From NCBI GenBank assembly GCA_014239155.1, contig JAAZZQ010000085.1, forward strand, positions 1 through 64,000: DNA of 64,000 nucleotides, read 5' to 3'. This document shows positions 41,516-60,097 of the stretch, one piece after another. A model generated the notes under the pieces. That model saw only the letters and a program-made list of their open reading frames with translations, was not told the DNA's origin and did no database searches. This DNA is from Lachnospiraceae bacterium. GTDB taxonomy: Bacteria; Bacillota; Clostridia; Lachnospirales; Lachnospiraceae. The first letter of the stretch is position 1. Each line of letters opens with the position of its first letter. The translations under genes were made by a program, and so were the position numbers.

Positions 41516-42913
41516 TCATACAACCGCTAACAGCATTACCTTTAATGATACCTTGTTTTCTTTCTGTTCAATCAGCACATCCCCATAATACTTTGCGGCA
41601 ACCGACTTTATATTTTGCAGACCAAAGCCATGCGCTTTTTTATCTTTCTTTTTTGTTTTTGGAAGCCCGCTTTCCTCATCTATGTCTAACCTGCCATCAA
41701 ACGAGTTTTCCACCGTAATTAGATACGCATTTTTATTCCTGAATGAATACACTCTTACAAATCCCCCTGCTTCTGTTGCTTCTATGGCATTTGACAGGGC
41801 ATTTGACAATACCACGCTGACATCAAACGCATCCACTCCACAACCGACCGGATAATGGAAATCGGCAGAAAATTGTATGCCCTTCCCTAATGCGGATTCC
41901 ATTTTTTCATGGAGAATCATATCTGTTACAGGATTCCCCGTTTTTATGGTAAAATCAAAGGTTTCCACAGTTTCGGAAAGGGAATTGGAATACTCCCGCG
42001 CCTCTTTTGTTTTACCCTGTGCAATCAGGCTGTTTATGATTTCAATATGGTTTTTTATGTCATGTTTCATGCCACGAATGCCATTATAAAGCCTTTCCAC
42101 TCCGGTAATATGTGTCTGCATATCCTTCATCTGGCTTTCCAGCATAAGCCATCTGCTCTCGTCTTCCCGCCTTTTTCTAATGTCCTGATACAATGTTATG
42201 ACACTGACGATTACAGCTAATATTACCACATAGCAGAATATCCATAAGAGTTCAAGCGGTATATGTGGCTGAAAGAAAGAAATTCCCATTTCATGCTCAT
42301 AGGCAACCGCATAAAACCGAAATATCCCATAAACAACCATTCCATTTGCAGATGGTATAATCATAAGAAGCATTTCACGCCATTCCAAATTTTCCTGTTT
42401 ATATAACAGCATCTTGTTTATTTTTCGGACTAATAAGTACAAAACCACGCCGCCCAATACAGAGCCGGACAGCGCACTTAGGACAGCTTCTATAAAATGA
42501 AACCACCACATTGCCGGATCAGACAAATCAAGGAAGCCACCCGCAAGATTTAATACTGCCACAGATAAAAGACTGCTTATTTTACTCGATATGGAAAAAG
42601 AAATCCACCGGATAACAAAAAATGTGGCAAACAAGAAAATCTTCATCTTGATATTTCTTCTGTCAAGCCATACGAAAACTGCAAATGCGGCAGCTAAGGC
42701 AAGGGAATATGCCACAAAACCATCAACAAGAAATGGCACATAATACAAAAATACCACTCCAAAAAAATAAACACTCCCAATCAGTCCCGTTCCACGCTTT
42801 CTTTTTATAAAATCTCTGCACAATATAAGCAGACAGATTGCAGCAATAAGCTGATCCGCAAGGAAATTCACATCCGACACTATCTGATACAGCATATCTA
42901 TATTTTCAGGCAT
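41516..42913 (-). CDS. AgrC-like sensor histidine kinase (GHKL)
   Basis: 465 residues from ATG 42913, eight bases after GGAGG. Six to seven membrane helices fill residues 10-235. A helical linker follows, then the phosphoacceptor motif MKHDIKNHIEIINSL (His near residue 295) and a GHKL ATPase: N-box VVLSNALSNAIEAT and G-box KKAHGFGLQNIKSVAAKY. This is the architecture of AgrC/ComD-type peptide sensors. The response regulator gene lies 17 bp upstream. No AgrB or AgrD partner was found nearby, so the input signal is unknown. Confidence 0.9.
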   Translation of the reverse strand: MPENIDMLYQIVSDVNFLADQLIAAICLLILCRDFIKRKRGTGLIGSVYFFGVVFLYYVPFLVDGFVAYSLALAAAFAVFVWLDRRNIKMKIFLFATFFVIRWISFSISSKISSLLSVAVLNLAGGFLDLSDPAMWWFHFIEAVLSALSGSVLGGVVLYLLVRKINKMLLYKQENLEWREMLLMIIPSANGMVVYGIFRFYAVAYEHEMGISFFQPHIPLELLWIFCYVVILAVIVSVITLYQDIRKRREDESRWLMLESQMKDMQTHITGVERLYNGIRGMKHDIKNHIEIINSLIAQGKTKEAREYSNSLSETVETFDFTIKTGNPVTDMILHEKMESALGKGIQFSADFHYPVGCGVDAFDVSVVLSNALSNAIEATEAGGFVRVYSFRNKNAYLITVENSFDGRLDIDEESGLPKTKKKDKKAHGFGLQNIKSVAAKYYGDVLIEQKENKVSLKVMLLAVV

Positions 42914-42930
42914 ATTTACCACCTCCGCAC

Positions 42931-43659
42931 CTAACCACTTATAAGCCTGCTTGTATATTCCAAATACTTCCTTACAAAATCCGCATATTTCTGTTTTGAC
43001 AGCAGGATTTCCGTTCCGTTTTCCAATGTAATACTGTTTGCCGTGTATTTCAGCACATACCGCAGATTGACGATATATGCCCTATGGCAGCGCACAAAAT
43101 CTTCTGAAAGCCTGTACTCCAATTCAATCAGCTTTCCATAAAATTCAACATCCCCGTCCGCCTTATGTATGATGACCTTGCGGTTGAACACTTCAAGATA
43201 AATGATTTTATACAAATAAATTTTTTTTGTCGTGGAACCTGTTTTTATGGCAATGCTCGGCTCATCTTTTGCCTCTTTTGCATTTATGGATTCACGCTCC
43301 GCCACGGCTTTCCGCAGGATTTCAAAAAATTTTGCCTTGTCAAATGGCTTCACAATGTAATGGAAAGCGCCCACGTCAAAAGCCTCAAATACATATTCCT
43401 CTATGGCTGTCACAAATATAATCGTGGCTTTGCACCCACGCCTGCGCAGCTCTCTGGCTGCTTCCATGCCCGACATCCCTTCCATCTGAATATCCAAAAA
43501 GAGAATGTCAAAACTGCCCCCGTATTCCACCAGAGTCGTTCCATCTTCAAACTGTATAATATCCGCATTTTCATAGAGTAGACGGATATTCCCTTCTATG
43601 CTGCTGCGTATTTCCTGCTCGTCATCGCATATCGCAATCGTAGCATTCGTTGTTTCCAT
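42931..43659 (-). CDS. LytTR-family response regulator (AgrA-like)
   Basis: About 242 residues from ATG 43659, eight bases after AAGGAAG; ATG 43665 is an alternative. Receiver domain with IAICDDEQEIRSSIEGNI, phosphoacceptor Asp in FDILFLDIQMEGMSGMEAARELR and the switch Lys in HYIVKPFDKAKF. The C-terminal LytTR DNA-binding domain contains IYLEVFNRKVIIHKADGDVEFYGKL and FVRCHRAYIVNLRYV. It forms an operon with the AgrC-like kinase downstream. Its targets were not identified. Confidence 0.9.
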   Translation of the reverse strand: METTNATIAICDDEQEIRSSIEGNIRLLYENADIIQFEDGTTLVEYGGSFDILFLDIQMEGMSGMEAARELRRRGCKATIIFVTAIEEYVFEAFDVGAFHYIVKPFDKAKFFEILRKAVAERESINAKEAKDEPSIAIKTGSTTKKIYLYKIIYLEVFNRKVIIHKADGDVEFYGKLIELEYRLSEDFVRCHRAYIVNLRYVLKYTANSITLENGTEILLSKQKYADFVRKYLEYTSRLISG

Positions 43660-43970
43660 AGACATCACTTCCTTAAATTTAACCATTACTTTTATTATAT
43701 CGACAGCAAACATAAGAAAACAGATAAATTGTTGTAAAACGAGTTTTTTCTGTCATGAATAATAAAATCATGTTGAGGTGCGCATAAAACAGGCAGTTAT
43801 ACGATATTTGTACAATGCCTACGCTTACGGAATCCATCTTATTCATTTTCTTTTATAACTTTTAGACAGCATGTCCAAAAGTGAAAAGCCCTGCATATTT
43901 ATCATATACAAAGCAATTCCAATCTTTTTTCTCCCTCTACATAGAGCGTTTTCTTTCCGTAAAACTCATT
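43660..43970. other. Upstream region of the two-component operon
   Basis: No gene was recognised. The first 60 bp hold the ribosome binding site and probably the promoter of the regulator gene on the minus strand. Confidence 0.4.
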
Positions 43971-44350
43971 TTACAGAGGTATACCCGCCTTTCGTGCGAA
44001 GTCTATTTTTCTTCCGATAAATTCCGACTGTTTTTCCTTTGAAAGACAGTTAAATATTTCCTCACCGACAATATTATCATCTAATTGCTTTTCCCTTGGA
44101 ATCAGAAACAAATTTATATTGAGCCATTCCTTCCAAACCCCTTCAAATAAACTGTGACTGTCTGTATAGGTGTCAAGTTCCTCAAAGCCATATGATGGTG
44201 TATAACACTACAATTTAACAAAACCATACCTTACAACATCAACCACTACCATATCTTCATCTTCTACTTCGTATAGTTCCGTAAACGCATCAATCACTTT
44301 GCGGCACTTTTTTCCGTTCTTCATCTTTAATATAAACCCGCTTCTCCATA
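43971..44350 (-). pseudogene. Relic of an unidentified accessory protein
   Basis: On the minus strand one frame reads KCRKVIDAFTELYEVEDEDM and VVVDVVRYGFVKL, then a stop, then CYTPSYGFEELDTYTDSHSLF with EGVWKEWLNINLFLIPRE and a terminal EFIGRKIDFARKAGIPL. An earlier frame gives MEKRVYIKDEERKK before a frameshift. The family was not recognised. Interrupted, so probably inactive. 44351-44739 beyond it shows no recognisable gene. Confidence 0.55.
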
Positions 44351-44739
44351 ATGATTTACCTCATTTCCTCTAATATTTTACTATGATTTAGTCAATAAGG
44401 GCTGTCCATATACACCGGATATTTGCTTTGCTTATTTTCCCATTTTTCACTTTACTCACAATTCACACCTGTTACCGCTGTTGTAAAAATGCCATTGTTC
44501 TGACTTTTTCTTTCTCATCAAATTTTTTGTCTGGTTTCTGAAAGAGTTTTTCGTGTAAAATGTCCTGCCTTATGGTAAAATAAAGACAGGGGAATCCTTT
44601 TGGAAGAACCCTGCGGGCATCCGCCACATTCAGTTTGGCGATTGGCTGTTTCGGGTGCTTTGCTTTTTGTCCTTTCCCAAGTACATGTCATCATGGTCAA
44701 AGGAACGCCAGACGGGTTCGGGAAACAGTCCGTATGTAT

Positions 44740-45713
44740 GGCAATAAGATCAAGATGAACGCAGAGTATCTTATAGAAGGTACGAATCTGTCCGGAGTCC
44801 AGAACCACTGTGTACTGTTCGAATCCTATAAGAAAGAGGACTATGTCACATTATTTTATGATTTCAAAAATGCCAGTGAGCGGATCGAAAGGCTTTTGCA
44901 AAACCTGTACCGTGAAATGGAGAACATCCGGAAAAAAATTTCAAAAGGCAGTGAGGCGTGTATCCAGGAAAAATATAAGGATTATCTGAAAATAAACGGG
45001 ACAGGGGAATTTAGGGATGTCTCAATCGATCCGGCGGGATTACAGACGGCACTTGATGAGAAAGGCCTGTACTGCATTGTATGTAGTGAGGCGATAGCGC
45101 CATATGATGTGCACAGCTTATGTGCTTCAAGAAATGCATCGGAAAAACAGTACATGTTCATCAAAAATTGCCTGGGATATGGAAAAATAAGGATTCAATT
45201 AACCGTCGGAGTCCGCTTGATGTTTTTGGCGGGGGTTATTGCGTCGGTAATCCGTTATGAGGTTCAACAGGCGTCAAAGTCCATAAAAAAACCGCAGCCA
45301 GCATGATCAATGAAATGAATCTTCTTGAGATGTCAAACATTAATGGGGCATACGCATATGTGCATATTGAAAACGGCAGGCAGGGAGAATTTCTCAAAAA
45401 GTTGGGGGCAGGCGTAGAAATTATTGACGAGGTTGTCCATGATGAAAATGAGAGACTTGAAGAGAGAGTTCCTGTGCCGCGTCACCGCAAGCCAGGGCCA
45501 AAGCGCAAACAGGCAGGGCATAAAAGCGGTAATTCTACGCCAGGAAAACCAGGACCGCCAAAAGGATATAAAAGATCTATATTCAATAAGGATGGAACAC
45601 CAAGACAAAAAACGGGTCCAAAACCAGGAACAAAGCGCGGGAAATTTAACGAAGATGGAAGCCCGCGTAAGAAACCCAGACCAAAACCCAAGAACGAGCA
45701 AATCACCAATTAA
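44740..45713 (+). pseudogene. Truncated, two-frame IS transposase
   Basis: The first frame (to TGA 45306) contains IERLLQNLYREMENIRKKI, DEKGLYCIVCSEAIAPYDVH and EKQYMFIKNCLGYGKIRI with a following VIASVIRYEV, a late segment of an IS4-superfamily DDE transposase. The second frame, -1 relative to it, continues ..AASMINEMNLLEMSNINGAY and ends in Pro/Lys/Gly-rich repeats (HRKPGPKR, TGPKPGTKRGKF). The switch lies at A7 (45285-45291), a possible slippery site. The N-terminal half of the transposase was not found. Confidence 0.6.
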
Positions 45714-45718
45714 TTAGG

Positions 45719-45746
45719 AAAACTGGTACGAGTTAGTACCAGTTTT
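45719..45746. terminator. Terminator, bidirectional
   Basis: AAAACTGGTAC, loop GAGTTA and GTACCAGTTTT form a perfect 11-bp stem with A/T runs. Confidence 0.88.
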
Positions 45747-45858
45747 CTGGAAGTTTACGTTTAAAGCAAGTCGAATAAATCCTTGAAATTGTTTACTTGC
45801 CTGTTATACGTTTTTCCACGGACCTGGCAGTACGTGCCGAGTCCTGTCTGAACAGTAA

Positions 45859-47190
45859 CTACGTTTCTTTTAACCGGTTCTTGTACCTATACATATAGAA
45901 AATACAGCTAAACATATAATTGAAAAACAATCCAACAAAAATAACCTCTATCCGAGGCGCTGCCTTATACAGCAATATAATAAACCCGAGCACTGTCAGA
46001 TTGATAACTGCGGTACTGTACAATACAAAGCTGCCATCTCCATATGCCTGAAGGACATATTTATATATCGTCTGCACCGGATTGAACAAGTTCATAATGA
46101 CCATAGGAATCACAATCATACCGGCAAAGGCAATCAGTTCTTCATCTGCAGAAATCAGCCTTGGAACTTGTCTCCTGAAAAAAATCACGATGACTGATAA
46201 CAGCGCAAATATCACCTGGGCGATCAGAACACTCATATTGGTGATGTCTTTCACTTTGTTCTTATCCTTCTGCCCAATTTTCTCACTCACCAGCGTCAGT
46301 GCCGCCGAACCGTACATAAACATCGGAATCATTACCATATCCAGTACTTTTTTTACCAATAAATATGCACCGATCTCCATGATGCCTGTTTTTGCAATCA
46401 TGGCATTGATGACAACGACAAACACACTGCCCTCCAGCAGCTCCTCCCCGGCTAGCGGCAGGCTGATCCTGATTAGATTGCAAATTTCCTTTTTATAAAT
46501 ATGCCTGTATTTGTGTCTGTTCCTCAATATGGAGTCCATATCCCGTCTACCGCCCCAGATATAGAAAATCATATTGGCAAAAACACTGATGATGCTGGCT
46601 GTTGCAGCGCCCGCAACTCCTAAAGGTTTCATCCCGCATTTGCCAAAAATAAGGACATAATCCAGCACTGTATTTAAGATTGCTGCCCCGGTTGACGCCC
46701 ACATAATGCGGCTTGTCTCCTTTCTGATCTTATAATACGAATTGAAGGTAAAAATAACCATCTGGAACAACATATATGGACTGGTAATGTAAATATAAAT
46801 CATAGCCGCCTTCAGAGCTTCGTCGGAAAGACCATAAATAGTCGAAAAAATAAATTTTCCAAGAATAATTACTATAATCGCGTACATTACTCCAACCAGC
46901 ACATCTATCAGAAGCGATGCCGTAAGAGACGTTCGGAAACCCTCTGTATCATTTTCTCCGCTCTTTCTGGAACCGATGATATTAAATGCCACCGCTGTAT
47001 AGCTGAAAACCCCTGCGATAAAAAACATCAGCGATGCAGCGATGCCAATCGCACCATATGCCTCCGTCGAAATCCTCCCGATAAACATCTCATCCACAAA
47101 GCCAATCAGAAAACCTGAAATATTTTGAATGATCAACGGGACTGCTATCTTATTTAATTCCTGTATGCCAGTTTTATTCAATCGTAACAT
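45859..47190 (-). CDS. MATE-family exporter, RiPP locus A
   Basis: 443 residues with about twelve membrane helices. It begins NKTGIQELNKIAVPLIIQNI and SGFLIGFVDEMFIGRISTEA, a typical MATE N-terminus. It should export an organic molecule in exchange for H+ or Na+. The start overlaps the upstream PqqD-like gene by 17 bp, so the three genes radical SAM, PqqD-like and MATE are translationally linked. Export of the modified peptide is the likely job, which is unusual because RiPP loci more often use ABC exporters. The TTA stop-side region ends near the transposase relic. Confidence 0.88.
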   Translation of the reverse strand: MLRLNKTGIQELNKIAVPLIIQNISGFLIGFVDEMFIGRISTEAYGAIGIAASLMFFIAGVFSYTAVAFNIIGSRKSGENDTEGFRTSLTASLLIDVLVGVMYAIIVIILGKFIFSTIYGLSDEALKAAMIYIYITSPYMLFQMVIFTFNSYYKIRKETSRIMWASTGAAILNTVLDYVLIFGKCGMKPLGVAGAATASIISVFANMIFYIWGGRRDMDSILRNRHKYRHIYKKEICNLIRISLPLAGEELLEGSVFVVVINAMIAKTGIMEIGAYLLVKKVLDMVMIPMFMYGSAALTLVSEKIGQKDKNKVKDITNMSVLIAQVIFALLSVIVIFFRRQVPRLISADEELIAFAGMIVIPMVIMNLFNPVQTIYKYVLQAYGDGSFVLYSTAVINLTVLGFIILLYKAAPRIEVIFVGLFFNYMFSCIFYMYRYKNRLKET

Positions 47191-47491
47191 TATTTGGAAC
47201 CCCTAGTTCTATTAAATTAGTCATGATCAGGCTCTTCATCGGAAAACTATCAAAAAAGTCTATTATATATTGTTCAACCCCTTCTTTTTCCATATTAAAC
47301 CAATCCATTAAAATATGAACCATATTTTCAAATTTAGTATTATATGATACCAAAAATAAAATACAGGCTCCCGTAATATTTACTTCATAAAATTCTAAAT
47401 CCTTCGGATCAAAACAGATATACACATTACCTTCCTGCCTAAATATTATCTTCTTACTACCATCAATACAAAACACCCTCATCTCATTCAT
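47174..47491 (-). CDS. PqqD-like peptide-recognition protein (RRE)
   Basis: 105 residues, starting 2 bp after the radical SAM stop. The layout (a beta-rich first part with FRQEGNVYICFDPKDLEFYEVNITGACILFLVS.., then helices and a C-terminal FDSFPMKSLIMTNLIELG) resembles PqqD-family RiPP recognition elements, which bind the precursor leader and present it to the radical SAM enzyme. The assignment rests on fold pattern and gene context, since PqqD sequences diverge strongly. Confidence 0.72.
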   Translation of the reverse strand: MNEMRVFCIDGSKKIIFRQEGNVYICFDPKDLEFYEVNITGACILFLVSYNTKFENMVHILMDWFNMEKEGVEQYIIDFFDSFPMKSLIMTNLIELGVPNNVTIE

Positions 47492-47493
47492 GC

Positions 47494-48585
47494 TTATTCC
47501 TCACAACCAAAACAACTTAAATCAGATCCATAAATACTACCATCTAAATTATAAGCAGCAGACCTGCATCCACCACCACACCATATATTTTCACAATCAT
47601 GACATTTTCCTGTTAAATTCTTTTTTTCGAGATTTCGAAGCTTTTTAAATACTTTAGAGTTATTCCAGATATCATTTATAGAACTGTTCAAAAAGCTCCC
47701 CGCACAAAACTCATCAATACCTATCATTAAATCACAGCCATATACATCACCATTACACATAATTGAAATCGATTTTATCCCTGCTTGGCAACTTACATCA
47801 CAATCATTACAGTTTTCATAATCTTGATTCCAATATTTCAACAAATCCAAACAATCATAAAACTTAAGTGGATAATAAAATAACCAAAAAATACTTCCTT
47901 CATTTGGAGGTACAATCTTAAAATTTATTTTTATCTCGCCCCTACTTTTCATTTGGGTAAGCTTTAAAAAAATAGGATACCAATTTTCTTTCGTAATCAA
48001 TAACTCTCCATTTGATGCACGTCCCGTAGGACACATAACCATAACAGACATATACTCTATTCCCAAGGACTCATTGAGCTTTATTGTATTAATCAAATCA
48101 TCTATATTGGTTTTATTTAATGTAAATAACGTAGAGACCGGAAGATTATATTTCTGTAGATTTCTAATTCCTTGAATAGCTTTTAAAAATGTCCCTTTAC
48201 CTCTAATAATATCATGAACCTTAGAACAACTACCATCAATAGTAATACATATACGATCAAATCGATACTCTCTAAGTTTACGTGAAACAGCTTCGCTAAT
48301 TAGAGTTCCATTAGAATTAATTACAATTGCAAATTTATATTTTTGAGCCTCATTCAGAATATCAAAAAAATCATTTCGAACAAACGGCTCACCCCCAGAT
48401 AACGAAATCCTATGAACATTCATATCATCTAATTGCTTAAATAATTCTTTGTATTTGTCTAAGGTTAATTCCTCCTCTGCTTTGCATTCATCTCCGGCAG
48501 AAGCATAACAATATTCACATTTAAGATTACATCTATTTGTCAGCGAAATATCCGCTAAAACAGGCGCAGAAAAATTTTTTCTCAT
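47494..48585 (-). CDS. Radical SAM/SPASM peptide maturase, RiPP locus A
   Basis: 363 residues. Radical SAM 4Fe-4S motif CNLKCEYC (CxxxCxxC, residues 18-25), the SAM-binding SLSGGEPFVRNDF, and a C-terminal SPASM-type Cys cluster (CNDCDVSC, CNGDVYGCD, CHDCENIWCGGGC and terminal CFGC) for auxiliary clusters. Such enzymes install C-C, C-S or C-O links or epimerise residues in a precursor peptide. GAGGT lies upstream of ATG 48585. It has its own promoter and is the first gene of the operon with the PqqD-like and MATE genes. The frame is intact. Confidence 0.9.
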   Translation of the reverse strand: MRKNFSAPVLADISLTNRCNLKCEYCYASAGDECKAEEELTLDKYKELFKQLDDMNVHRISLSGGEPFVRNDFFDILNEAQKYKFAIVINSNGTLISEAVSRKLREYRFDRICITIDGSCSKVHDIIRGKGTFLKAIQGIRNLQKYNLPVSTLFTLNKTNIDDLINTIKLNESLGIEYMSVMVMCPTGRASNGELLITKENWYPIFLKLTQMKSRGEIKINFKIVPPNEGSIFWLFYYPLKFYDCLDLLKYWNQDYENCNDCDVSCQAGIKSISIMCNGDVYGCDLMIGIDEFCAGSFLNSSINDIWNNSKVFKKLRNLEKKNLTGKCHDCENIWCGGGCRSAAYNLDGSIYGSDLSCFGCEE

Positions 48586-48703
48586 TTAAATTTACCTCGT
48601 TTAATACTTTATCATATACCTTGCCTTTGAGTACCATATTACAAAGCATATTCCACTCATTATGAAATCTAAGTATTCAATAATTATTTACTTAACTTTT
48701 GAT

Positions 48704-48733
48704 ATTATAATGGATCGCACCTTAAAATATCAA
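48704..48733 (-). promoter_or_regulatory. Promoter of the RiPP locus A operon
   Basis: On the minus strand: TTGATA (48728-48733), 18-bp spacer, TATAAT (48704-48709). It gives a leader of about 110 bases before the radical SAM start. Confidence 0.75.
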
Positions 48734-48849
48734 TACTTTAGCTCACACAATACCTTCATATGGCTATTTCTTTTCGTTCCAAAACCTTCTGCATATATTT
48801 TGGGAGATTCTGGATAAAGCAAGTATTAAATTTCCCCGCTGAACTTCGA

Positions 48850-49439
48850 TGATGTGAAAATACTCCATGATAATATCCATCAATGCGTCATTAGTGCATC
48901 ATCAATGATAATACAAATGGAACGGGTGAACGTGATATCTTCCATTTTATCAAGCAGGCTGAAACACAGCTCACAGATTGTTTTATCATCTTTGTTTCCC
49001 GCTGAGCTACTAACAGCATCATGTAACCAGAAAAGACAACAGCAGCATGAGTATTCAAGGCATCATAGGAAATACCATGGTATTCTTTCACAAGGTTCAA
49101 ATAAGATCTTCATGTTTTGAAAAAACTCAACGTCCCAACGTATTCCAAAACACAAACACTTTCTTCTTCGGAAAGTTCTAAATTTATGCTTATGATCACC
49201 AGCCAGTCTTTCTGGTCACTTTTATTGCAAAAATAGACAAAATTTGTTGGGAGACTTTCGCCATCTTTTTTAATTGTCACAGGTAAAGAAACTAACCTGA
49301 CTGACCTCTGCGTTTTGTTCTGGCTATAGACTTCTTTCACATTGAGTTTTTCATCATTGTATAAGTATTTCATTTTACTTTTCTTAATCATAACAATCAT
49401 GTCAAGGTGTTCTTGTGGACTGAAGTATTTGATTTTCAA
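48850..49439 (-). pseudogene. IS4-family transposase relic
   Basis: The frame 49110-49439 contains KMKYLYNDEKLNVKEVY and SDQKDWLVIISINLELSEEE, matching the late part of IS4-type DDE transposases (DWLALLSTD..LSEEE). A damaged continuation on the same strand has CERIPWYFL, EYSCCC and MEDITFTRSICIIIDDAL, the expected C-terminal order. Both ends are truncated. It lies between the locus A peptide gene and its radical SAM gene. Confidence 0.6.
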
Positions 49440-49949
49440 AGTGCATCATACCGAATAGTGTGGAAAGTTTGAGTAGTTTACATGGAATTTCTAATCTTAT
49501 AAAAACATTCACTGTATTGATTTATGCTACAAGGTATTAATTCATCATAAAATAATATCACTAATCTAATAATTATGGCTCTGTATATATTATCTACACA
49601 TACAAAAATATGCATATTAGATAGATTATTTAGCAATCTAAAAATTACATTTCTGCTAATTTTCTTAATCTAATAATGATGTACGCAGAATTTGCCATGA
49701 AACTGTAGACAATATATTTTATACATTACATTTTTAATTACTAAACTATAAAAGAGCACATTCAAAATGTTTACTAAATCTCACTTTTGAATATCATAAA
49801 ATATACATATAGTACACACTGATATCTCGAAAAAAACCACTTTGCTCCATTTATCAATTGATTCATATTAATTTCTATTGTACAATTTTCGGATTTACTC
49901 ATTTATAGCACTAAACTAAAAACTTCCTTTTTCCAGGGGAACTATATAA
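49440..49949. other. AT-rich region downstream of the locus A peptide gene
   Basis: No open frame with a ribosome binding site was seen. TAATCTAATAAT occurs twice (around 49562 and 49666), a direct repeat that may be a protein-binding site. Confidence 0.4.
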
Positions 49950-50030
49950 TCAGTTTTTTCCCCAAGATATAAACCGTACAATTGTAGGTTTCTTAATTTC
50001 GGTAATAATAGGTTTTTTTAATGTTTTCAT
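49950..50030 (-). CDS. Candidate RiPP precursor peptide, 26 residues
   Basis: A 27-codon frame on the minus strand begins MKTLKKPIITEIKKP and ends VRFISWGKN. GGAGGG sits six bases before ATG 50030, a strong ribosome binding site. It carries a Lys-rich start and an aromatic C-terminus (RFISW) without Cys, so thioether chemistry is excluded and a carbon-carbon or similar link to Trp, Phe or Lys would be expected. It points in the same direction as the radical SAM-PqqD-MATE operon, about 1.4 kb upstream, with a transposase relic between. The link to that operon is inference. Confidence 0.6.
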   Translation of the reverse strand: MKTLKKPIITEIKKPTIVRFISWGKN

Positions 50031-50302
50031 TCTAATCCCTCCACTTCTATATAGGTAGTGTCAAGTTTAATATTCCAAAATCGCCTCAACCCTAGTAAAT
50101 TCAAGGTATTCAGTCTCTAGATACTTTTATCCCTCTCTTTTTACCTCTTAGTGACCATTTATTTCACAAACCATTTGACACGAACTCCATATTTTATGAT
50201 AAATTAATACCTAAATTTAGAAGCAATAAACGTGCACAGCTATATTAACCTCTTACAATTTATTGCTTACGATGATTATTATATATTAGCATATAGTAAA
50301 TA

Positions 50303-50357
50303 CAATGGCTTTTCGCTTATAAAAATCCGTCGAATTTTGTAAAACGAAAAGCCATTG
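50303..50357. promoter_or_regulatory. Inverted repeat overlapping the 46-residue peptide promoter
   Basis: CAATGGCTTTTCG (50303-50315) and CGAAAAGCCATTG (50345-50357) are a perfect 13-bp inverted pair around 29 bases. The right arm runs into the -35 box at 50355, so a bound regulator or an RNA hairpin could control the promoter. Confidence 0.65.
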
Positions 50358-50383
50358 CTGTTTTTGTAAATTTGCTGTATAAT
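50355..50383 (+). promoter_or_regulatory. Promoter of the 46-residue peptide gene
   Basis: TTGCTG at 50355-50360, a 17-bp spacer and TATAAT at 50378-50383, 40 bp before the start codon. Confidence 0.72.
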
Positions 50384-50423
50384 ACATATTTAAATACAAT
50401 TTATATATGGAGGTTATGTATCT

Positions 50424-50564
50424 ATGATTCAAAAATTAAAATCACTTATGAAAAAATCCACCGCTATTACAACATTTCAGGATTCGCCAGTCACTGAGGA
50501 TTCTTATGATGTTGTCTGTTGCCAGGAGATTCCTGATTTGGGTAGTGTTTCTTTCAATGATTAA
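50424..50564 (+). CDS. 46-residue peptide, candidate signal or RiPP precursor
   Basis: 47 codons starting MIQKLKSLMKKSTAITTFQD and ending YDVVCCQEIPDLGSVSFND. TGGAGGT lies about ten bases before ATG 50424. A basic N-terminal third followed by an acidic, Cys-containing C-terminal part looks like a leader and core. A perfect -10 box and an inverted repeat stand upstream. Its TAA overlaps by 4 bp the stop end of the convergent HTH/TPR regulator gene. A role as the peptide signal sensed by that regulator is possible; a substrate for a nearby radical SAM enzyme is another. Too short for default gene callers. Confidence 0.65.
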   Translation: MIQKLKSLMKKSTAITTFQDSPVTEDSYDVVCCQEIPDLGSVSFND

Positions 50565-52357
50565 TCTATAATATACTTACATCTTGAATTTTTGAGATAT
50601 ATACCATATATCTCTTTTTCTTTCTCAAAATAATAAAAATCACTCATATAGTATATTACTTCTGACCATTTATCTAAATCTTTATCTGACATTCCATCCT
50701 TCTCCAATATTTGAGATAGATTATTCACAAAATACGGTAACACAGATGCCTTTCCACAGCATAATTCATTTTTAAGCCCTTCAACAGCCCCTTTCCAATC
50801 CTTACATCGATGCACATAATTATTAAGAAAAAGTGCATAAGAGCGGTATCTATACCTAACGTCCACTTTACTGCTGCGCATTCTCTGTAAAACGTTTTTA
50901 TATATCATCATTGCCTCCCCCTCCCGCCTGGTTTCATCAAGCAAAATGCAGATATTATTGATAACCAGCACCTCATTTCTCATCGGGATATGATAAAGGA
51001 TCATCTGGTCATATTCCATAACTCCTTCTAATAACACTTTCATTATCTTCAAGGCATCCTGCGCAGTGATTTCCTTGAGATGATAGGCAATCATAGTTTC
51101 ATGAAGCGCTATCACCCTTTGATTTTCCCCAATCTCTATATCAATGCATTTCTTTAATTCTTTCAAAAGCCCTTTCGCATCTGTATATTTGCGGTGCATC
51201 TGCAGTTTGTCTATCCGGCTCCGAAGTTCCATTATCTCAAACGAGTCCGTCACTACATACCCGTTATACCGCCCCTTTTCCATACCAATTTTCTTTATCA
51301 TCTTCTCAAAGGTCTTTTTGTTTGGCGATGTCTTTCCAGTTTCTACCCGGGAAATGGAGCCTGTATCCTGATAAATCCCTTCTGCAAATTCCTCCTGTGT
51401 CATACCTTTCGCTTTCCGCTCATCCCGGACTAATTCATAATCCAGATGGTATTCTCTCTGACAGCAATTATGAAATATCGCATCAGTAGGATACCACTTC
51501 TCCGCAAAAGATTCCCACAAAAAAGTGAGAGCCCTATAATACTGTATTCACTTGCTATGCTCTGGTGCAATCCCCAAATTTTCCCCTATCCGAACCATGA
51601 GCGCTAATAGCGGCAGTGTAAAATAAATCATTGTATTTCTGCGCAGTCCCTCCATGCCCTTTTCACAAAGCGTCATTGCCTGCACGTAGTTTCCTTCACT
51701 GTAATAAACCCGTGCAAGCAGCCATGCACATTTCGCGTAAATTTTGGCATGCTCCTCATCATCTGTAAAATATCTGTCTATATATTCCATGCAGATTCTC
51801 AGGTGTCCTTTTTCCGTTGATTTATTCTTATCCGGATTTTTTTCAATACTTATTTTTTCCAATGCCAGCAGATTCTCCATCTCCACAGTCGAGATAAGGT
51901 ATGTATTGATCGTATCATACGTGAAACCAGGCATTGTCACATTTACTGCGAACCACAAGTTTTCCGCCGCCCTGTCATAGTCCTTGTCAATGTGGTATAA
52001 GAGACTGGCTCTCATACGGTACCGATACATTTGATCTACATTCGTTCGCACAGGGTATTGTTCCAATATATACGCTGCAGGCGCTCTTTTTCCTTTATAG
52101 ATTGTCTTCTCCAGCAGGTCACGCACGCGCACCATCCGATACATATCCGCCTGCAGTATACGCTCAAGCTTATCTGGTGATTTTCCCAGCCGCTGCAACA
52201 GCATATCGATCATAAGCGGGTCTGTTTCAAACTGATCTTTCTCAATCTGGTACAGCATCTGCGCAGAGCATAAGCCGTCTGACAGTTTTTTCCGTGTTAT
52301 GCCTTTTTTCTCTCTCCGCATCTGCACAAGCAGATTTCCTATTGTTATATATCGCAT
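50561..52357 (-). pseudogene. Double-HTH, TPR-containing regulator with one nonsense codon
   Basis: Two frames read continuously: 51548-52357 ends with a TGA at 51548-51550, and the same frame goes on through IQYYRALTF into WESFAEKWYP and to 50561. Sense reading would give 598 residues. An N-terminal XRE HTH (IGNLLVQMRREKKGITRKKLSDGLCS), a TPR-like helical middle, and a second HTH in the other half (DYELVRDERKAKGMTQEEFAEGIY) followed by more helices. This resembles peptide-responsive regulators of the RRNPP kind in layout. TGA in place of, for example, TGG inactivates or shortens the protein unless read through. Confidence 0.75.
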
Positions 52358-52431
52358 GGATTATCCTCTCGTATACACTTATTATACTGGCGGTCGAAAA
52401 GACTGACCGCTCTGAACTGTTCTTTAACGCC

Positions 52432-52460
52432 AGTCTAACATTGAATAGTACACATGTCAA
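52432..52460 (-). promoter_or_regulatory. Promoter of the regulator gene with nearby inverted repeats
   Basis: On the minus strand TTGACA (52455-52460), 17 bp, TAGACT (52432-52437). Between it and the gene lie GCGGTC/GACCGC (52390-52410) and ACTGGCG/CGCCAGT (52386-52434), possible operator sites. Confidence 0.68.
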
Positions 52461-52560
52461 TCGGCATACGTACTGTTCACTCCGTTCCAGTAACAGGTAA
52501 GGATCTATTGAAAATCAGAAGCAAAGGACTGTGCTGATAACAGTAATTTTGACTTTTTTG

Positions 52561-52622
52561 AATCGAGTAGGAGGCGGTGACTAGCCGCCGTCCTCTCACA
52601 GCATTGTGCACACCGTTCGGCT
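52561..52622 (-). mobile_element. Possible group II intron 3' remnant
   Basis: Read on the minus strand: GAACGGTGTGCACAATGCTG, then GTGAGAGGACGGCGGCTAGT and CACCGCCTCCTACTCGATT. The GTGTGAGAGGACGG..CCTCCTACTCGAT pattern is familiar from the region after intron-encoded reverse transcriptases in Firmicutes. No reverse transcriptase or intact domain V was found. It abuts the truncated ABC transporter, so it may mark a deletion junction. Confidence 0.4.
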
Positions 52623-52626
52623 ATAA

Positions 52627-53219
52627 GGTACTTACGGGAAAAATGACGGTTGGATTTCTCACTATAATATCGACATACTTTTCAATGATTATTTCGTCTG
52701 CAACATATTTTTTAAATTTGGCAGGAAATTATCAAGAAACTAAAATATCAGTAGAAAGGATAAACAAAATCAAAAATGCAGAAAGTGAAATATTTGGAGA
52801 AATTCATCTGAATAGTATAAATAAAATTCAAGTTAAAGATTTTTCAATTAAATATGGAGAAAAGATTATTATTAATAATTTTAATGTAGAATTAGAAAAA
52901 GGAAAGATATATGCAATTCTTGGTGCAAATGGAGCAGGAAAAACAACCTTAGTGAATTCAATGGTTGGTTTATATAGTGATTTATATGATGGAGAGATAC
53001 TATTTGATGGAATCTCAATTAAAAAAAGTTAGCTTTAGTAAGAGGACTTTGCAAAGAATCTATTTTAACAATTATGGACGAGCCGACATCAGCATTGGAT
53101 ACAAAAAGTGTAAATAGTTTATTAGAATGGATAAAAAACAGAAAGAAAAAAGAAATTACATTAATAATAACACACGATGAAAGGGTTATAAAAATTTGTG
53201 ATGAAATCATAAATTTATG
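52627..53219 (+). pseudogene. Truncated ABC transporter, RiPP locus B
   Basis: The first frame contains the end of a membrane domain (TVGFLTIISTYFSMIISSATYFLNLAGN), then a nucleotide-binding domain with Walker A GANGAGKTTLVNSMVGLY. At about 53030 the frame breaks and resumes as KLALVRGLCKESILTIMDEP with TSALDT (Walker B) and LIITHDE (H-loop). The Q-loop and most of the signature region are deleted, and the N-terminal transmembrane part is missing. It was probably the exporter for the Cys-rich peptide encoded downstream. Confidence 0.75.
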
Positions 53220-53229
53220 AGGTATTATT

Positions 53230-54752
53230 ATGAATAATAACTATATAAAAGTTTTTTTTGACAGGATAACTTCACAATATGGAAGATTTAGCAGGCTGTA
53301 TAAAGTATTTCAAACTAATAAAAGCAAATATATGTATGATGTAGGAACGGGTAAGGCTTGCCAATGTTCGGAATGTGAATATGATTTTCTCAATGAATTA
53401 TTACAGAGTGAAAATTTAGATATGGCAATTAATAAAAATGCGAGTAAATATGGTGATATGTTTATTGATGAAATCAGTAATTTAATAGAAGGAATAAAAA
53501 CTCATCATCTTCTTTGCGCAGAAAAGTTAAAGAAATTTGAGCGAAAAGAGAAAATAGTATTGGAAAAAGCTGAAACAGACTTACAGCAAATTACATTAGA
53601 ATTAACAGAATGTTGCAACTTAGCTTGTCGATATTGTATATATGGAGAAGAAAACAGTGATTTTAGAGAATTTGGAAATAGAGTAATGAGCTGGAATGTT
53701 GCTAAGGCAGCGGTAGATTATGCATTGGCACATTCAAAAAGAAAAATTGCCATAACATTTTATGGGGGAGAACCACTTCTTAATTTTGAGTTACTCAAAC
53801 AAATTGTGGAGTATACATTGAAAAATAAAGATAATAAAGAATGTACATTTTCAATGACAACAAATTTGACATTATTGTCAAAAGAAATAGCGCTTTATTT
53901 ATTGACAATTCCGCAGTTTTCTGTTGTAGGTAGTATTGACGGAAATAAAGAAGTACACAATCAAAATCGTGTTTATAAAAATGGTAAAGGCTCGTATAAT
54001 GCTGCCATTTTAGGGCTTAAAAATATAGTTGAAGCATTTGGTGAAAGAGCCAAAGAGAAATTATATTAAGTATGGTTATAGATACACCGATTAATGATGA
54101 ACGGCTAGAAAATATTCAAAACTTTTTTGAGCAATTAACGTGGTTCCCCAAAGAAATTGTAAAAAGAATTTCATATGTTAGACCGCCTTCAAAAAGGGAG
54201 ATTGCTAGAGTAAAACAATTAAAAGAGGTGTATTCAGAACCGATTGGTGAATGGAGTTTAAAAAAGCAACTGGAGGATGGAGAAAGAGTATTATTTACAA
54301 ATGATTTTTTAGAAAGAGGGTTGTTGTCTATACATAATAGGATATTAGCAAAAACACCTATACAAAAATATCAATTAAATGGTTGTTGCTATCCCGGAAG
54401 CAGGAGATTATATGTAAGTGTAGATGGTAATTTTTCTATTTGTGAATGAATAGGGAAAGCGCCTATTTTGGGAAATGTATTTGAGGGAATAAAAAAGGAA
54501 GAGTTGCTTAATGAGTATCATAGAAAATATATAGAAAAAAGTATTGTACAGTGTGCAGAGTGTTAAGCAATAAATTTGTGTGAGATATGTTTTATGGAAT
54601 GTTATGATCAAATGGGATTTGATTTGGAAAAAAAGAACATAGCGTGTGGCAGAATGAAGCGTTCAATTGAAAGAAATTTAAAAGCCTATTTTTCAATTTT
54701 AGAGGATAGACCAGAAATTATAGAAAAGTTAAACACAATAAGTGTTAGCTAG
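53230..54752 (+). pseudogene. Broken radical SAM/SPASM maturase, RiPP locus B
   Basis: Reading 53230-54069 gives an N-terminal domain with CQCSECEYDFLN and the radical SAM motif CNLACRYC near residue 133, then ITFYGGEPLLNFELL and SVVGSIDGNKEVHNQNR. A one-base loss near 54058 shifts the frame to SMVIDTPINDERLENIQNFF. Later in-frame stops are TGA 54447 (after FSICE) and TAA 54564 (after QCAEC) within the SPASM Cys cluster (CAEC..LCEICFMECYDQ). Without these it would be about 507 residues. It resembles maturases of Cys-rich (sacti/ranthi-type) peptides. Confidence 0.8.
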
Positions 54753-54766
54753 AAATGGAGGAAAAA

Positions 54767-54958
54767 ATGAAATTAGTAAATGTAGATGGAAGAACACCAG
54801 CAGCAATATTAAATGGAATGATGCCACGGGCATGTATTTGCAATACGGGAGCAAATACTATTTTGCAACGTTTTGGCGATGGTGATAATTGCGCATGCCA
54901 ATGTAAAGATACAGCAGACAATAATAGCGCCAATCATCAATTAGCTATTAAGTATTAA
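54767..54958 (+). CDS. Cys-rich RiPP precursor, locus B
   Basis: 63 residues from ATG 54767 (GGAGGA seven bases upstream). A leader of about 25 residues (MKLVNVDGRTPAAILNGM) precedes a core with CIC, about 18 residues of GANTILQRFGDGDN type, and CACQC, followed by a polar tail. Five Cys in CxC...CxCxC spacing suit thioether bridging by the adjacent radical SAM enzyme. The frame is intact, though its maturase and exporter are broken. Separated by 14 bp from the maturase relic. Confidence 0.75.
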   Translation: MKLVNVDGRTPAAILNGMMPRACICNTGANTILQRFGDGDNCACQCKDTADNNSANHQLAIKY

Positions 54959-58115: not shown

Positions 58116-60086
58116 ATGTTAGATGAAATCAAGACAAATGAAAATACAAAATTAAATGATAATATATTACAAGTGCTACAACAACATTTCCCTTCTTGTT
58201 TTACCAAAGAAGGGAAATTTGATTTGGTGAAATTTCAAGAGTTGTTAAAAGATGAGGTAGATTTTTCGCAAGAGGGTTATTCTTTAAATTTCTTGGGAAA
58301 AAATTATGCAAAGTATCTGACTTCGTTAGATGCGGATACTGTTTTAGTGCCAGATATTGAACATAATGCACTGGAAGAAAATAAGAATAGTAAGAATGTT
58401 TATATTACAGGTGATAATTTTGATTCTATGAAGCATCTGTTAAATTCATATAGGGGCGAAATTAAATTTATATATCTTGATCCTCCTTATAATACAGGAT
58501 CGGACGGTTTCACATATCAAGATAAATTTAATTTTACAGTTAATTCATTGGTCGAGAAGATTAATCTAAGTAAGGAAGAAGCAGAAAGAATATTGGATTT
58601 AACAACAAGGGGTTCCGCATCACATTCTGCATGGCTTATGTTTATGTTGCCAAGATTATTAATGGCAAGGGATCTACTGACAAAAGATGGTGTTGTGATA
58701 ATTTCCATTGATGAAAGCGAACACGCTAATTTAAAGTTGTTATGTGATGATGTATTTGACGAAAGAAATTTTGCAGGAGAAATAATTTGGAAAAATAGTT
58801 CTAAAAATGACCAAGATTACATTTCCATGCAACATGAATATATACTGTTTTATGTTAAAAATAAGGATATAAATAAGGGGAACTGGAAAGAGAAAAAGGA
58901 AGGATTAGAGGATATTTACAAAGCATTTGAAAAATTTAGACAAGAGTGTGGTGAAGATTATGAGGCAATTCATAAGAAGGCGCTTGATTGGTATAAACAG
59001 TTTTCTGAGTCAAATCCAATCTATGATAGTAAGCATTATTCTTGGTATGATGATATACATGGCGTCTATTTTCCAGATAATATTGCCGGTCCGAACTATG
59101 GGCAATATGTGTATGATGTGCCGCATCCAGTTACAGGGAAAAATGTAAAAGTCCCAGCATCTGGCTGGAGATTTCCGGAACATACAATGCAGGAAAAGAT
59201 GAAAGAAGGCGCGATTCATTTTGGAAAGGATGAAACAGTTATCCCGAATAAAAAAACATATCTTAAGGATGTAGAATTTCAGTCTTTGGCAAGTATTAAA
59301 TACAAAGATGGGCGAGTTGCATCTAAATTAATAGAAACGCTTTTGGGTGGTAAATATTTTTCAAATCCGAAAGATGTAGATCTTATGTGTTCTATTTTTA
59401 AGGCACTTGGAATTAAAGATGGAGATGTTGTTTTAGATTGCTTTTCTGGGTCTGCATCGACAGCACATTCGATAATGAAACTAAATGCACAAAGTAATTT
59501 AAACATTAGATATATTCATTTACAGATGCCAGAAAAGGTGAAACAATCGGATGCTGCATATAAAGCTGGGTATAGAACGATAGATCAAATTGGAAAAGCC
59601 AGAATAAAAGCATCAGCAGAGGCAATAAAAGCAGAAACAAATGCAAATATTGATTATGGATACAAGCACTATATTATAAGACAGATTGAAGCAGAAACTA
59701 TAGATAACATGGAAAAATTTAACCCGGAAATTATGATAACTACAAATGATATTTTGTCTGAATATGGTGAGGCAACAGTTTTAGCAACATGGTTATGTAA
59801 AGATGGATATGGTTTGTATCCGGAGATAGAAGATATAGATTTGGATGGATATCATGCAACGCTTTGCGGCAGGCACTTATATTTGATTAATAAGGGATTT
59901 GGGAAAAACAATGTAGAAGCGTTAGTAAAGTCCTACATAGAGGATATTACATTTAATCCAGAACACATTGTGATTTTTGGATATAGTTTTGAAAGTTGGA
60001 CGATTTCAGAAGTTTTACAGAGGAATCTGAACATATTAAAAGCAGGGCAAAAAGATTTAAATATCAATTATGATGTGAGATATTAG
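58116..60086 (+). CDS. mod: Type III DNA methyltransferase subunit Mod
   Basis: 656 residues. Beta-class adenine-N6 methyltransferase: catalytic motif DPPYNTGSDGF at residues 122-132 precedes the SAM-binding VVLDCFSGSASTAH near residue 440. The central target-recognition region between them is long. Mod recognises an asymmetric 5-6 bp site and methylates one strand, and forms the restriction complex with Res. AAGGAG precedes ATG 58116. The frame is intact with no phase-variable repeat tract seen. res starts 11 bp after it. Confidence 0.93.
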   Translation: MLDEIKTNENTKLNDNILQVLQQHFPSCFTKEGKFDLVKFQELLKDEVDFSQEGYSLNFLGKNYAKYLTSLDADTVLVPDIEHNALEENKNSKNVYITGDNFDSMKHLLNSYRGEIKFIYLDPPYNTGSDGFTYQDKFNFTVNSLVEKINLSKEEAERILDLTTRGSASHSAWLMFMLPRLLMARDLLTKDGVVIISIDESEHANLKLLCDDVFDERNFAGEIIWKNSSKNDQDYISMQHEYILFYVKNKDINKGNWKEKKEGLEDIYKAFEKFRQECGEDYEAIHKKALDWYKQFSESNPIYDSKHYSWYDDIHGVYFPDNIAGPNYGQYVYDVPHPVTGKNVKVPASGWRFPEHTMQEKMKEGAIHFGKDETVIPNKKTYLKDVEFQSLASIKYKDGRVASKLIETLLGGKYFSNPKDVDLMCSIFKALGIKDGDVVLDCFSGSASTAHSIMKLNAQSNLNIRYIHLQMPEKVKQSDAAYKAGYRTIDQIGKARIKASAEAIKAETNANIDYGYKHYIIRQIEAETIDNMEKFNPEIMITTNDILSEYGEATVLATWLCKDGYGLYPEIEDIDLDGYHATLCGRHLYLINKGFGKNNVEALVKSYIEDITFNPEHIVIFGYSFESWTISEVLQRNLNILKAGQKDLNINYDVRY

Positions 60087-60097
60087 GAGGTGATTGA

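Follow-up and report, generated by a model that had tools for sequence, protein, structure and literature searches.

A probable diverged tryglysin-type RiPP cluster beside a candidate peptide-sensing module in a Lachnospiraceae genome

The window analysed here is a stretch of 64,000 nucleotides (G000:C8:1-64000, the start of contig JAAZZQ010000085.1) from a Lachnospiraceae genome of 4.57 Mb, and it carries a locus for a ribosomally synthesized and post-translationally modified peptide (RiPP). Four genes of this locus, named here after the tryglysin genes that they resemble, encode a short precursor (wgkA), a radical S-adenosylmethionine (SAM) maturase (wgkB), a protein of the PqqD type (wgkC), and an exporter (wgkD). 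A preliminary description of the locus had reported three tightly coupled, intact genes, and the coordinates and spacings given for them hold: wgkB and wgkC are separated by 2 bp, and wgkC and wgkD overlap by 17 bp. None of the four wgk frames is interrupted, ribosome sites are present, and the cysteine motifs are intact; the wgkB product has the motif CxxxCxxC at Cys19/23/26 and matches the Pfam families Radical_SAM and SPASM. The same description closed the locus at 50030, a boundary that proved too narrow, as it excludes a regulator gene, another gene for a small peptide, and a palindrome (50278-52357).

The NCBIfam models point to the tryglysin system for all three proteins encoded downstream of the precursor. 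The radical SAM protein matched WgkB with 591.5 bits (E 5.6e-178), and its second-best family, heme b synthase, reached 167.9 bits. The 105-aa protein gave 98.8 bits with WgkC and 18.6 bits with the runner-up family; it had no match in Pfam. The MATE protein scored 364.4 bits with the model 'tryglysin-associated MATE efflux transporter WgkD', compared with 169.7 bits for the generic MATE model TIGR00797. In Streptococcus mutans, the operon consists of the regulator pdrA followed by wgkA-B-C-D (PMC8092268). Therefore, the view that no described class combines these genes has to be abandoned, since a precursor, a radical SAM enzyme, an RRE (RiPP recognition element)/PqqD-like protein and a transporter are what wgkABCD comprises, and a RiPP class without precedent was rejected on the WgkB, WgkC, and WgkD assignments. 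MATE export, described earlier as unusual for RiPPs, is to be expected here. The proposed function as a peptide maturation and export unit fits the Wgk-family matches, and the locus is most likely a diverged tryglysin-type (WGK) radical SAM RiPP cluster.

The 26-residue precursor ends in RFISWGKN. Tryglysin A is VNSWGKH and tryglysin B is VNCWGKH. In S. mutans, the precursor is 21 residues long, and the 7-residue product carries a tetrahydro[5,6]benzindole, formed with a loss of 4 Da (PMC8092268). A pairing of homologous operons with a different precursor had been named as a refutation, but the two described operons point in the opposite direction, their precursors ending in [SC]WGKH. The frame, noted earlier for its strong ribosome site, had been proposed as the precursor, and this proposal gained support from a count of frames of 15-60 codons with a strong ribosome site that end in WGK plus 0-3 residues. 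Such a frame appeared in 0/400 shuffles of 48586-50600, and the real stretch contains one among its 2 frames of 15-60 codons with a strong ribosome site; the motif used in this count was chosen post hoc, because of tryglysin. By analogy, the predicted core would be FISWGKN, with leader removal at Arg19/Phe20. The computed [M+H]+ of this core minus 4 H is 847.410, and the same calculation for tryglysin A gives 823.385 (823.3868 was reported; PMC8092268). Of the earlier expectations, the lack of a thioether and a Trp/Lys cross-link also fit the tryglysin analogy.

Table 1. Features of the wgk locus and of the module upstream of it.
Feature	Position	Strand	Details
wgkA-like precursor	49950..50030	minus	26 aa + stop, MKTLKKPIITEIKKPTIVRFISWGKN; GGAGG 5' of ATG
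wgkB-like radical SAM/SPASM peptide maturase	47494..48585	minus	363 aa; NCBIfam NF050035
wgkC-like PqqD-family chaperone/RRE	47174..47491	minus	105 aa; NCBIfam NF050069
wgkD-like MATE exporter	45859..47190	minus	443 aa; NCBIfam NF052396
Decayed transposase between wgkA and wgkB	48764..49439	minus	Open reading frame (ORF) pieces
Possible sigma-70 promoter of wgkBCD	48704..48733	minus	TTGATA-18-TATAAT, 11/12 consensus bases
Candidate promoter toward wgkA	50278..50305	minus	TTGTAT-16-TATAAT, picked by eye; leader ~240 nt
Palindrome, candidate operator	50303..50357		27-nt arms, 81% complementary, 1 nt between; 0/200 shuffles
Candidate promoter of small peptide gene	50355..50383	plus	TTGCTG-17-TATAAT, picked by eye
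Small peptide gene	50424..50564	plus	46 aa, MIQKLKSLMKKSTAITTFQDSPVTEDSYDVVCCQEIPDLGSVSFND; strong ribosome binding site; points away from wgkA
Tandem PlcR/Rgg-like regulator (HTH-TPR-HTH-TPR)	50561..52357	minus	ORFs 52357-51548 and 51520-50561

The gap between wgkA and wgkB is 1364 bp long. A transposase relic had been recognised in it, which is borne out for one piece: 65% of 49439..49110 is 37.7% identical to annotated transposase genes of two plasmids (E 7e-6). In Pfam, the same piece had no match, and the remaining relic pieces had no clear match. A promoter of their own for wgkBCD, which had also been claimed, is plausible from the sequence, as a site with 11/12 consensus bases is present; its score was attained in 7/300 shuffles of that 200-bp stretch, and a wider promoter scan returned 9 sites, fewer than the shuffle mean of 14.1. 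An Rfam scan of 45800-52700 found nothing.

The module upstream of wgkA consists of the regulator, the small peptide gene, and the palindrome. The two regulator ORFs represent one gene with one in-frame stop; the copy in a sister metagenome-assembled genome (MAG) is open over 598 aa. The small peptide gene overlaps the regulator tail to tail by 4 bp, and its product has no hydrophobic core; a search for this peptide in phages gave a best E of 0.2. The palindrome, of the sequence type ATGGCTTTTCGCTT, sits in the 393-bp interval between the small peptide gene and wgkA, and its outer ends overlap the weak -35 elements, each followed by TATAAT, of both candidate divergent promoters. A promoter scan of the region listed neither of these candidates; the -35 of the small-peptide promoter may be too weak for such a scan, as in an activator-dependent promoter. 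The nearest relative by identity is locus L120 of genome G016, where the receptor is 63% identical. L120 keeps the palindrome type of the window, the -10 and the ribosome site, its peptide is 48% identical with 8 extra residues in a hydrophobic stretch, and its divergent operon contains ABC transporters and a YcaO gene.

The receptor carries two HTH domains, and its two halves are homologous. In a profile of 63 receptor rows, the halves align with each other with an E of 1.2e-22 over 238 columns. The C half matches PlcR residues 10-286 (E 3e-10), and the N half matches residues 2-110 of the chains 5w4m, 5w4n, and 4yv6 (E 3.6e-6 to 6.9e-6), which are labelled 'Transcriptional regulator' and which we take to be Rgg. 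Weaker matches of the N half were a MutR-family protein (3e-4), PrgX (3.1e-4), and ComR (1.8e-3). Therefore, the receptor is a tandem of two PlcR/Rgg-like units per chain, each of which combines the HTH with the TPR-like peptide-binding domain of RRNPP receptors. The default length range of a published RRNPP detector is 250-500 aa (PMC10075063), so that a two-unit chain of 598 aa would be left out.

At E <= 1e-60, tandem receptors occur in 18/98 genomes (the window genome included), all of one genus among the 57 sampled. The search returned 80 matches, and after removal of 12 partial ones, 68 full-length or nearly full-length copies were analysed with up to 5 kb of downstream sequence. A strict partner was defined as an opposite-strand ORF of 35-70 aa with a ribosome site and a hydrophobic stretch, whose 3' end lies -60 to +150 bp from the receptor 3' end; these limits were fixed once four loci of the window genome had been inspected and 30 loci surveyed more broadly. 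Such a convergent peptide was found at 45/68 receptor copies, and at 43/63 once the near-copies L067, L071, and L113 and the interrupted L072 (window) and L090 were set aside (43/59 of this reduced set with at least 250 bp downstream). The earlier 30-locus set, with 23 strict partners, is a subset of the 68. The same rule applied to control gene ends gave 1/50 in the window contig and 2/91 in the same loci (3/141). The partner peptides have 40-60 residues with a hydrophobic stretch, and the overlap with the receptor gene is exactly 4 bp in 21/45 cases and 10 bp in 10/45. Relaxed rules alone added 11 loci, convincing by eye at L066, L067, L074, L099, and L128 and not at the other six, and 12/68 copies had no candidate at all.

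The coupling of receptor and peptide extends to the palindrome. Loci whose peptide was strict or convincing numbered 50; with the sister locus L069 added and two loci of too little sequence removed, 49 remained, in which the best hairpin within 250 bp 5' of the peptide gene was compared with 40 shuffles. It exceeded all of them in 30/49 loci, compared with 1/49 for control stretches further downstream. Besides the window type, the types distinguished by eye were CAAGGGACAGAATTG, ATGACGTTTT, CAATGCCCAGAG, and GTACATGACTTTTT.

For the genes beyond the peptide, the analysis took the three ORFs of 80 aa or longer that come first after the peptide start, at 51 loci (six too short for any ORF). A radical SAM motif was present in 13/51: nine loci of one family, L123, L126, L127, and wgkB itself (L069). 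The nine (L066, L067, L068, L077, L081, L083, L085, L087, and L100) encode proteins of 422-481 aa from genes divergent from the peptide genes, and L066 and L067 are mutual near-copies. The three members scanned fall far below the cut-offs of named peptide maturases, and one passes the general SPASM-domain model only. No small ORF is common to all nine loci that could be their precursor; L066 and L067 have a 33-residue frame in common.

The window receptor belongs to a clade of 9 rows with support 100/100, and a radical SAM or YcaO gene is present in 6/8 clade loci with useful downstream sequence, one of them being the wgk locus. L126 (G022:C22) has a PapB-family ranthipeptide maturase above its cut-off (378 vs 340 bits), L123 and L124 have a radical SAM gene each, L122 combines an ABC transporter with a protein that matches a peptidase family below its cut-off, L125 has an ABC transporter, and L121 offers too little sequence. 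Two small ORFs in this clade are candidate precursors in their own right: a Cys/Asp-rich 56-residue ORF beside the maturase of L126, and a 27-residue ORF ending in GPLCCNGVQF, followed by the radical SAM gene, at L127 (G007:C83). On the receptor tree, 13/63 rows bear the radical SAM label (near-copy L067 out, L124 in, and rows with short sequence counted as unlabelled). The label requires 9 changes, compared with 11.9 in shuffles, and a value as low occurred in 6/500; it is thus clustered on the tree and not of single origin, with the caveat that joins between long-branched clades may be false. As a separate observation, the clade of L106, L107, L108, L111, L113, and L116 adjoins a repeated operon, encoding a protein of 602-605 aa with D[VA]SGSM (cut in L108), which continues, by eye, with a 727-aa protein wherever the sequence extends far enough and in 4/6 loci with a 141-aa one.

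Copies of wgkB are rare. At E <= 1e-60, wgkB was found in 2/38 genomes of the genus, the window genome counted, and in 1/397 genomes of the family sample and 1/398 of the phylum sample, each time the window's own genome; in these two samples at most 4 candidates were scored per genome. Among genomes of relatives, the count was 2/98. The genome scan, which detects close relatives only, gave two loci, the sister and an unrelated radical SAM gene with 28% identity. The sister copy (L010, in G016 of the same genus) is 99.7% identical over 28.8 kb. For two other loci common to both genomes, the identity is 99.78 and 99.92%, and for the remainder of that contig it is 99.6%; therefore, the sister locus is no independent test of conservation and was rejected as such evidence. 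As a yardstick, rpoB had no match in G016. Within the shared stretch, 41909-51547 (9.6 kb) shows zero differences to the sister MAG, where 42.8 would be expected, and the remaining 19,162 bp show 85.

A plasmid or phage home of the cluster was rejected on the corresponding searches. At E up to 1e-40 for wgkB and up to 1e-30 for wgkD, the plasmid collection had no match, the phage records contained two distant relatives of the wgkB radical SAM protein only (33.2% and 23.1% identity), and the viral contigs had no wgkB match. Among 395 genomes of the class to which the genome of L011 belongs, wgkB was absent and two weaker radical SAM matches reached 121 and 112 bits. A Streptococcus 16S probe had 0/386 matches in genomes of that class, so that streptococci are probably not part of that set.

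Further features surround the locus. An IS1634-family transposase fragment lies just past wgkD (44635-45306, plus strand; 40.4 bits, cut-off 100). In the same region, a 136-aa ORF (45303-45713, plus strand) contains Lys/Pro-rich KPGPK-like repeats and matched no family. On the other side of the receptor, 52577-54449 (plus strand) contains a fragment of an ABC transporter and, split in two, a sactipeptide maturase of the RumMC (ruminococcin C) type, the parts of which score 271 and 91 bits at a cut-off of 720; these genes represent a decayed second RiPP cluster. A 63-residue ORF with a ribosome site and the motifs CIC and CACQC (54767-54958, plus strand) is possibly a RumC-like precursor, the likeness being judged by eye. 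Two large ORFs at 58116-63061 (plus strand) resemble, also by eye, a type III restriction-modification pair.

Taken together, these results are best explained, at a probability of about 0.78, by a diverged tryglysin-type cluster that makes an exported antibacterial peptide and whose production is, or formerly was, switched by the upstream peptide-sensing module. The WgkB-like radical SAM enzyme, to which the WgkC-like protein would present the precursor, would join Trp23 and Lys25 of SWGKN; by analogy, a tetrahydro[5,6]benzindole would form and the mass would fall by 4 Da. The leader would then be cleaved, most simply after Arg19, leaving FISWGKN, and the MATE protein would export the short, presumably antibacterial, peptide. 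The tandem receptor, the convergent small peptide, and the palindrome reaching both candidate promoters would form the switch, now or formerly, with the module sensing its own peptide and driving wgkA.

Several points weigh against this explanation. The scores of 591.5, 98.8, and 364.4 bits do not reach the curated cut-offs for WgkB, WgkC, and WgkD (650, 110, and 510), so that the cluster would be a diverged variant working like tryglysin and not a strict member, and its likeness to the streptococcal wgk clusters was drawn from NCBIfam models and published descriptions. The sole other wgk copy found is the near-identical sister. With respect to the switch, no match to TIGR01716 (Rgg, the regulator of known tryglysins) was obtained at E up to 0.1 for the regulator pieces and up to 0.01 for the sister copy, and a single-sequence structure model of the receptor was unusable (pLDDT 38.9). 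Across the genus, 20/63 receptor copies have no strict partner, 19/49 loci have no outstanding palindrome, and the neighbours of other receptor clades are very different; thus the control of RiPP genes would be one use among several. Finally, in the window the decayed transposase and 1364 bp separate wgkA from wgkB, the receptor is interrupted by a stop, and the peptide, having no hydrophobic core, fails the strict test. The switch of the window strain therefore looks damaged, and this copy may be dead or altered.

This damage raises the rather improbable case that the whole cluster is a relic, in which the insertion has parted the precursor from its enzymes and nothing is made. The insertion, the interrupted receptor, the peptide without export core, and the decayed RiPP neighbours would all agree with it, whereas the open wgk frames with their ribosome sites and intact cysteine motifs, together with the open sister receptor, speak against it. 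An upstream module unconnected with the wgk genes, either a stray or a part of the decayed ruminococcin-C-like cluster, with wgkA and wgkBCD using promoters of their own, is also unlikely. The broken RumMC-type maturase and ABC fragment starting at 52577, the promoter-like site before wgkBCD, the ~240-nt leader of wgkA and the choice of the palindrome promoters by eye are in keeping with this. However, the place where the family carries its palindrome, 5' of the peptide gene in 30/49 loci, is in the window the interval between peptide gene and wgkA, and a radical SAM gene divergent from the peptide gene recurs at nine loci from another clade, among them one pair of near-copies, and at L123, L126, and L127. 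A third possibility, that the radical SAM enzyme is a three-residue cyclophane synthase making a triceptide-like single Trp-Gly-Lys cross-link and not the double ring closure of tryglysin, is distinctly unlikely: W-x-K is also a plausible substrate for a three-residue cyclophane and the WgkB cut-off is unmet, but WgkB leads by 591.5 to 167.9 bits, and DynA, the dynobactin maturase, which we take to be a cross-linker of this kind, reached 84.6 bits among the 25 families listed of 100 matched.

Beyond the tryglysin-type cluster itself, gene layout and homology suggest that the receptor, peptide, and palindrome family serves quorum sensing. We consider it fairly probable that the genus uses an undescribed branch of quorum sensing, with tandem receptors, convergent secreted peptides, and long palindromic operators in several copies per genome, repeatedly wired to RiPP operons of tryglysin, ranthipeptide, YcaO, and other types. 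This would be a counterpart to the network of Rgg/SHP (short hydrophobic peptide) and radical SAM RiPPs in streptococci, with a different receptor build. From the switch comes a defined set of candidate peptide signals in a Lachnospiraceae genus that can be put to the test, and the two-unit receptor raises the questions of whether one peptide or two are bound and whether the palindrome is read by a single chain or by a dimer of fused dimers. Moreover, as one published search rule requires PF04055 and TIGR01716 together (PMC13289728), tandem receptors could reveal RiPP clusters that this rule would miss. For the family of tandem receptors, peptides and palindromes, as for WGK clusters in Lachnospiraceae, no report was present among the literature matches listed, which is weak evidence, with subscription journals little covered. 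In the portion of a 2026 review that was available, tryglysins are reported from streptococci only (PMC13361665); tryglysin chemistry would thus extend to gut Clostridia, and the core ISWGKN would be new and could be tested by the established method of co-expression in E. coli. Tryglysin B-like clusters have been described from primate gut metagenomes, the examined parts of that source naming no producing bacterium (PMC11448209).

Among known systems, ruminococcin C touches the locus through the decayed RumMC-type maturase that adjoins the module (53230-54449), which belongs to another radical SAM family with sactionine chemistry and lies outside the wgk unit. The RRNPP systems (PlcR-PapR, Rgg-SHP, and ComR) share with the module the HTH and TPR-like helical domain, present here in each half, and the adjacent small peptide gene, mostly with a hydrophobic stretch, with an operon beside it. 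They differ in that two receptor units are here joined in one chain of ~600 aa, the peptide gene is convergent, with the 4-bp overlap in 21/45 cases, and the palindrome arms are about 20-30 nt long. The closest system is tryglysin of S. ferus and S. mutans. The precursor has Trp-Gly-Lys plus one final residue, the order of regulator, precursor, radical SAM enzyme, RRE protein, and transporter is that of S. mutans, and WgkB, WgkC, and WgkD are the best NCBIfam models for all three proteins of the cluster. In contrast, the host is a member of the Lachnospiraceae, the precursor has 26 residues and not 21 as in S. mutans, the peptide ends in ISWGKN and not N[SC]WGKH, an insertion relic lies between wgkA and wgkB, and a tandem receptor with a convergent peptide stands in place of Rgg with a divergent SHP. 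In S. mutans, shp and wgkA have a 17-nt motif in common near their -35 positions (PMC8092268), and the palindrome of the window would follow the same logic with other parts.

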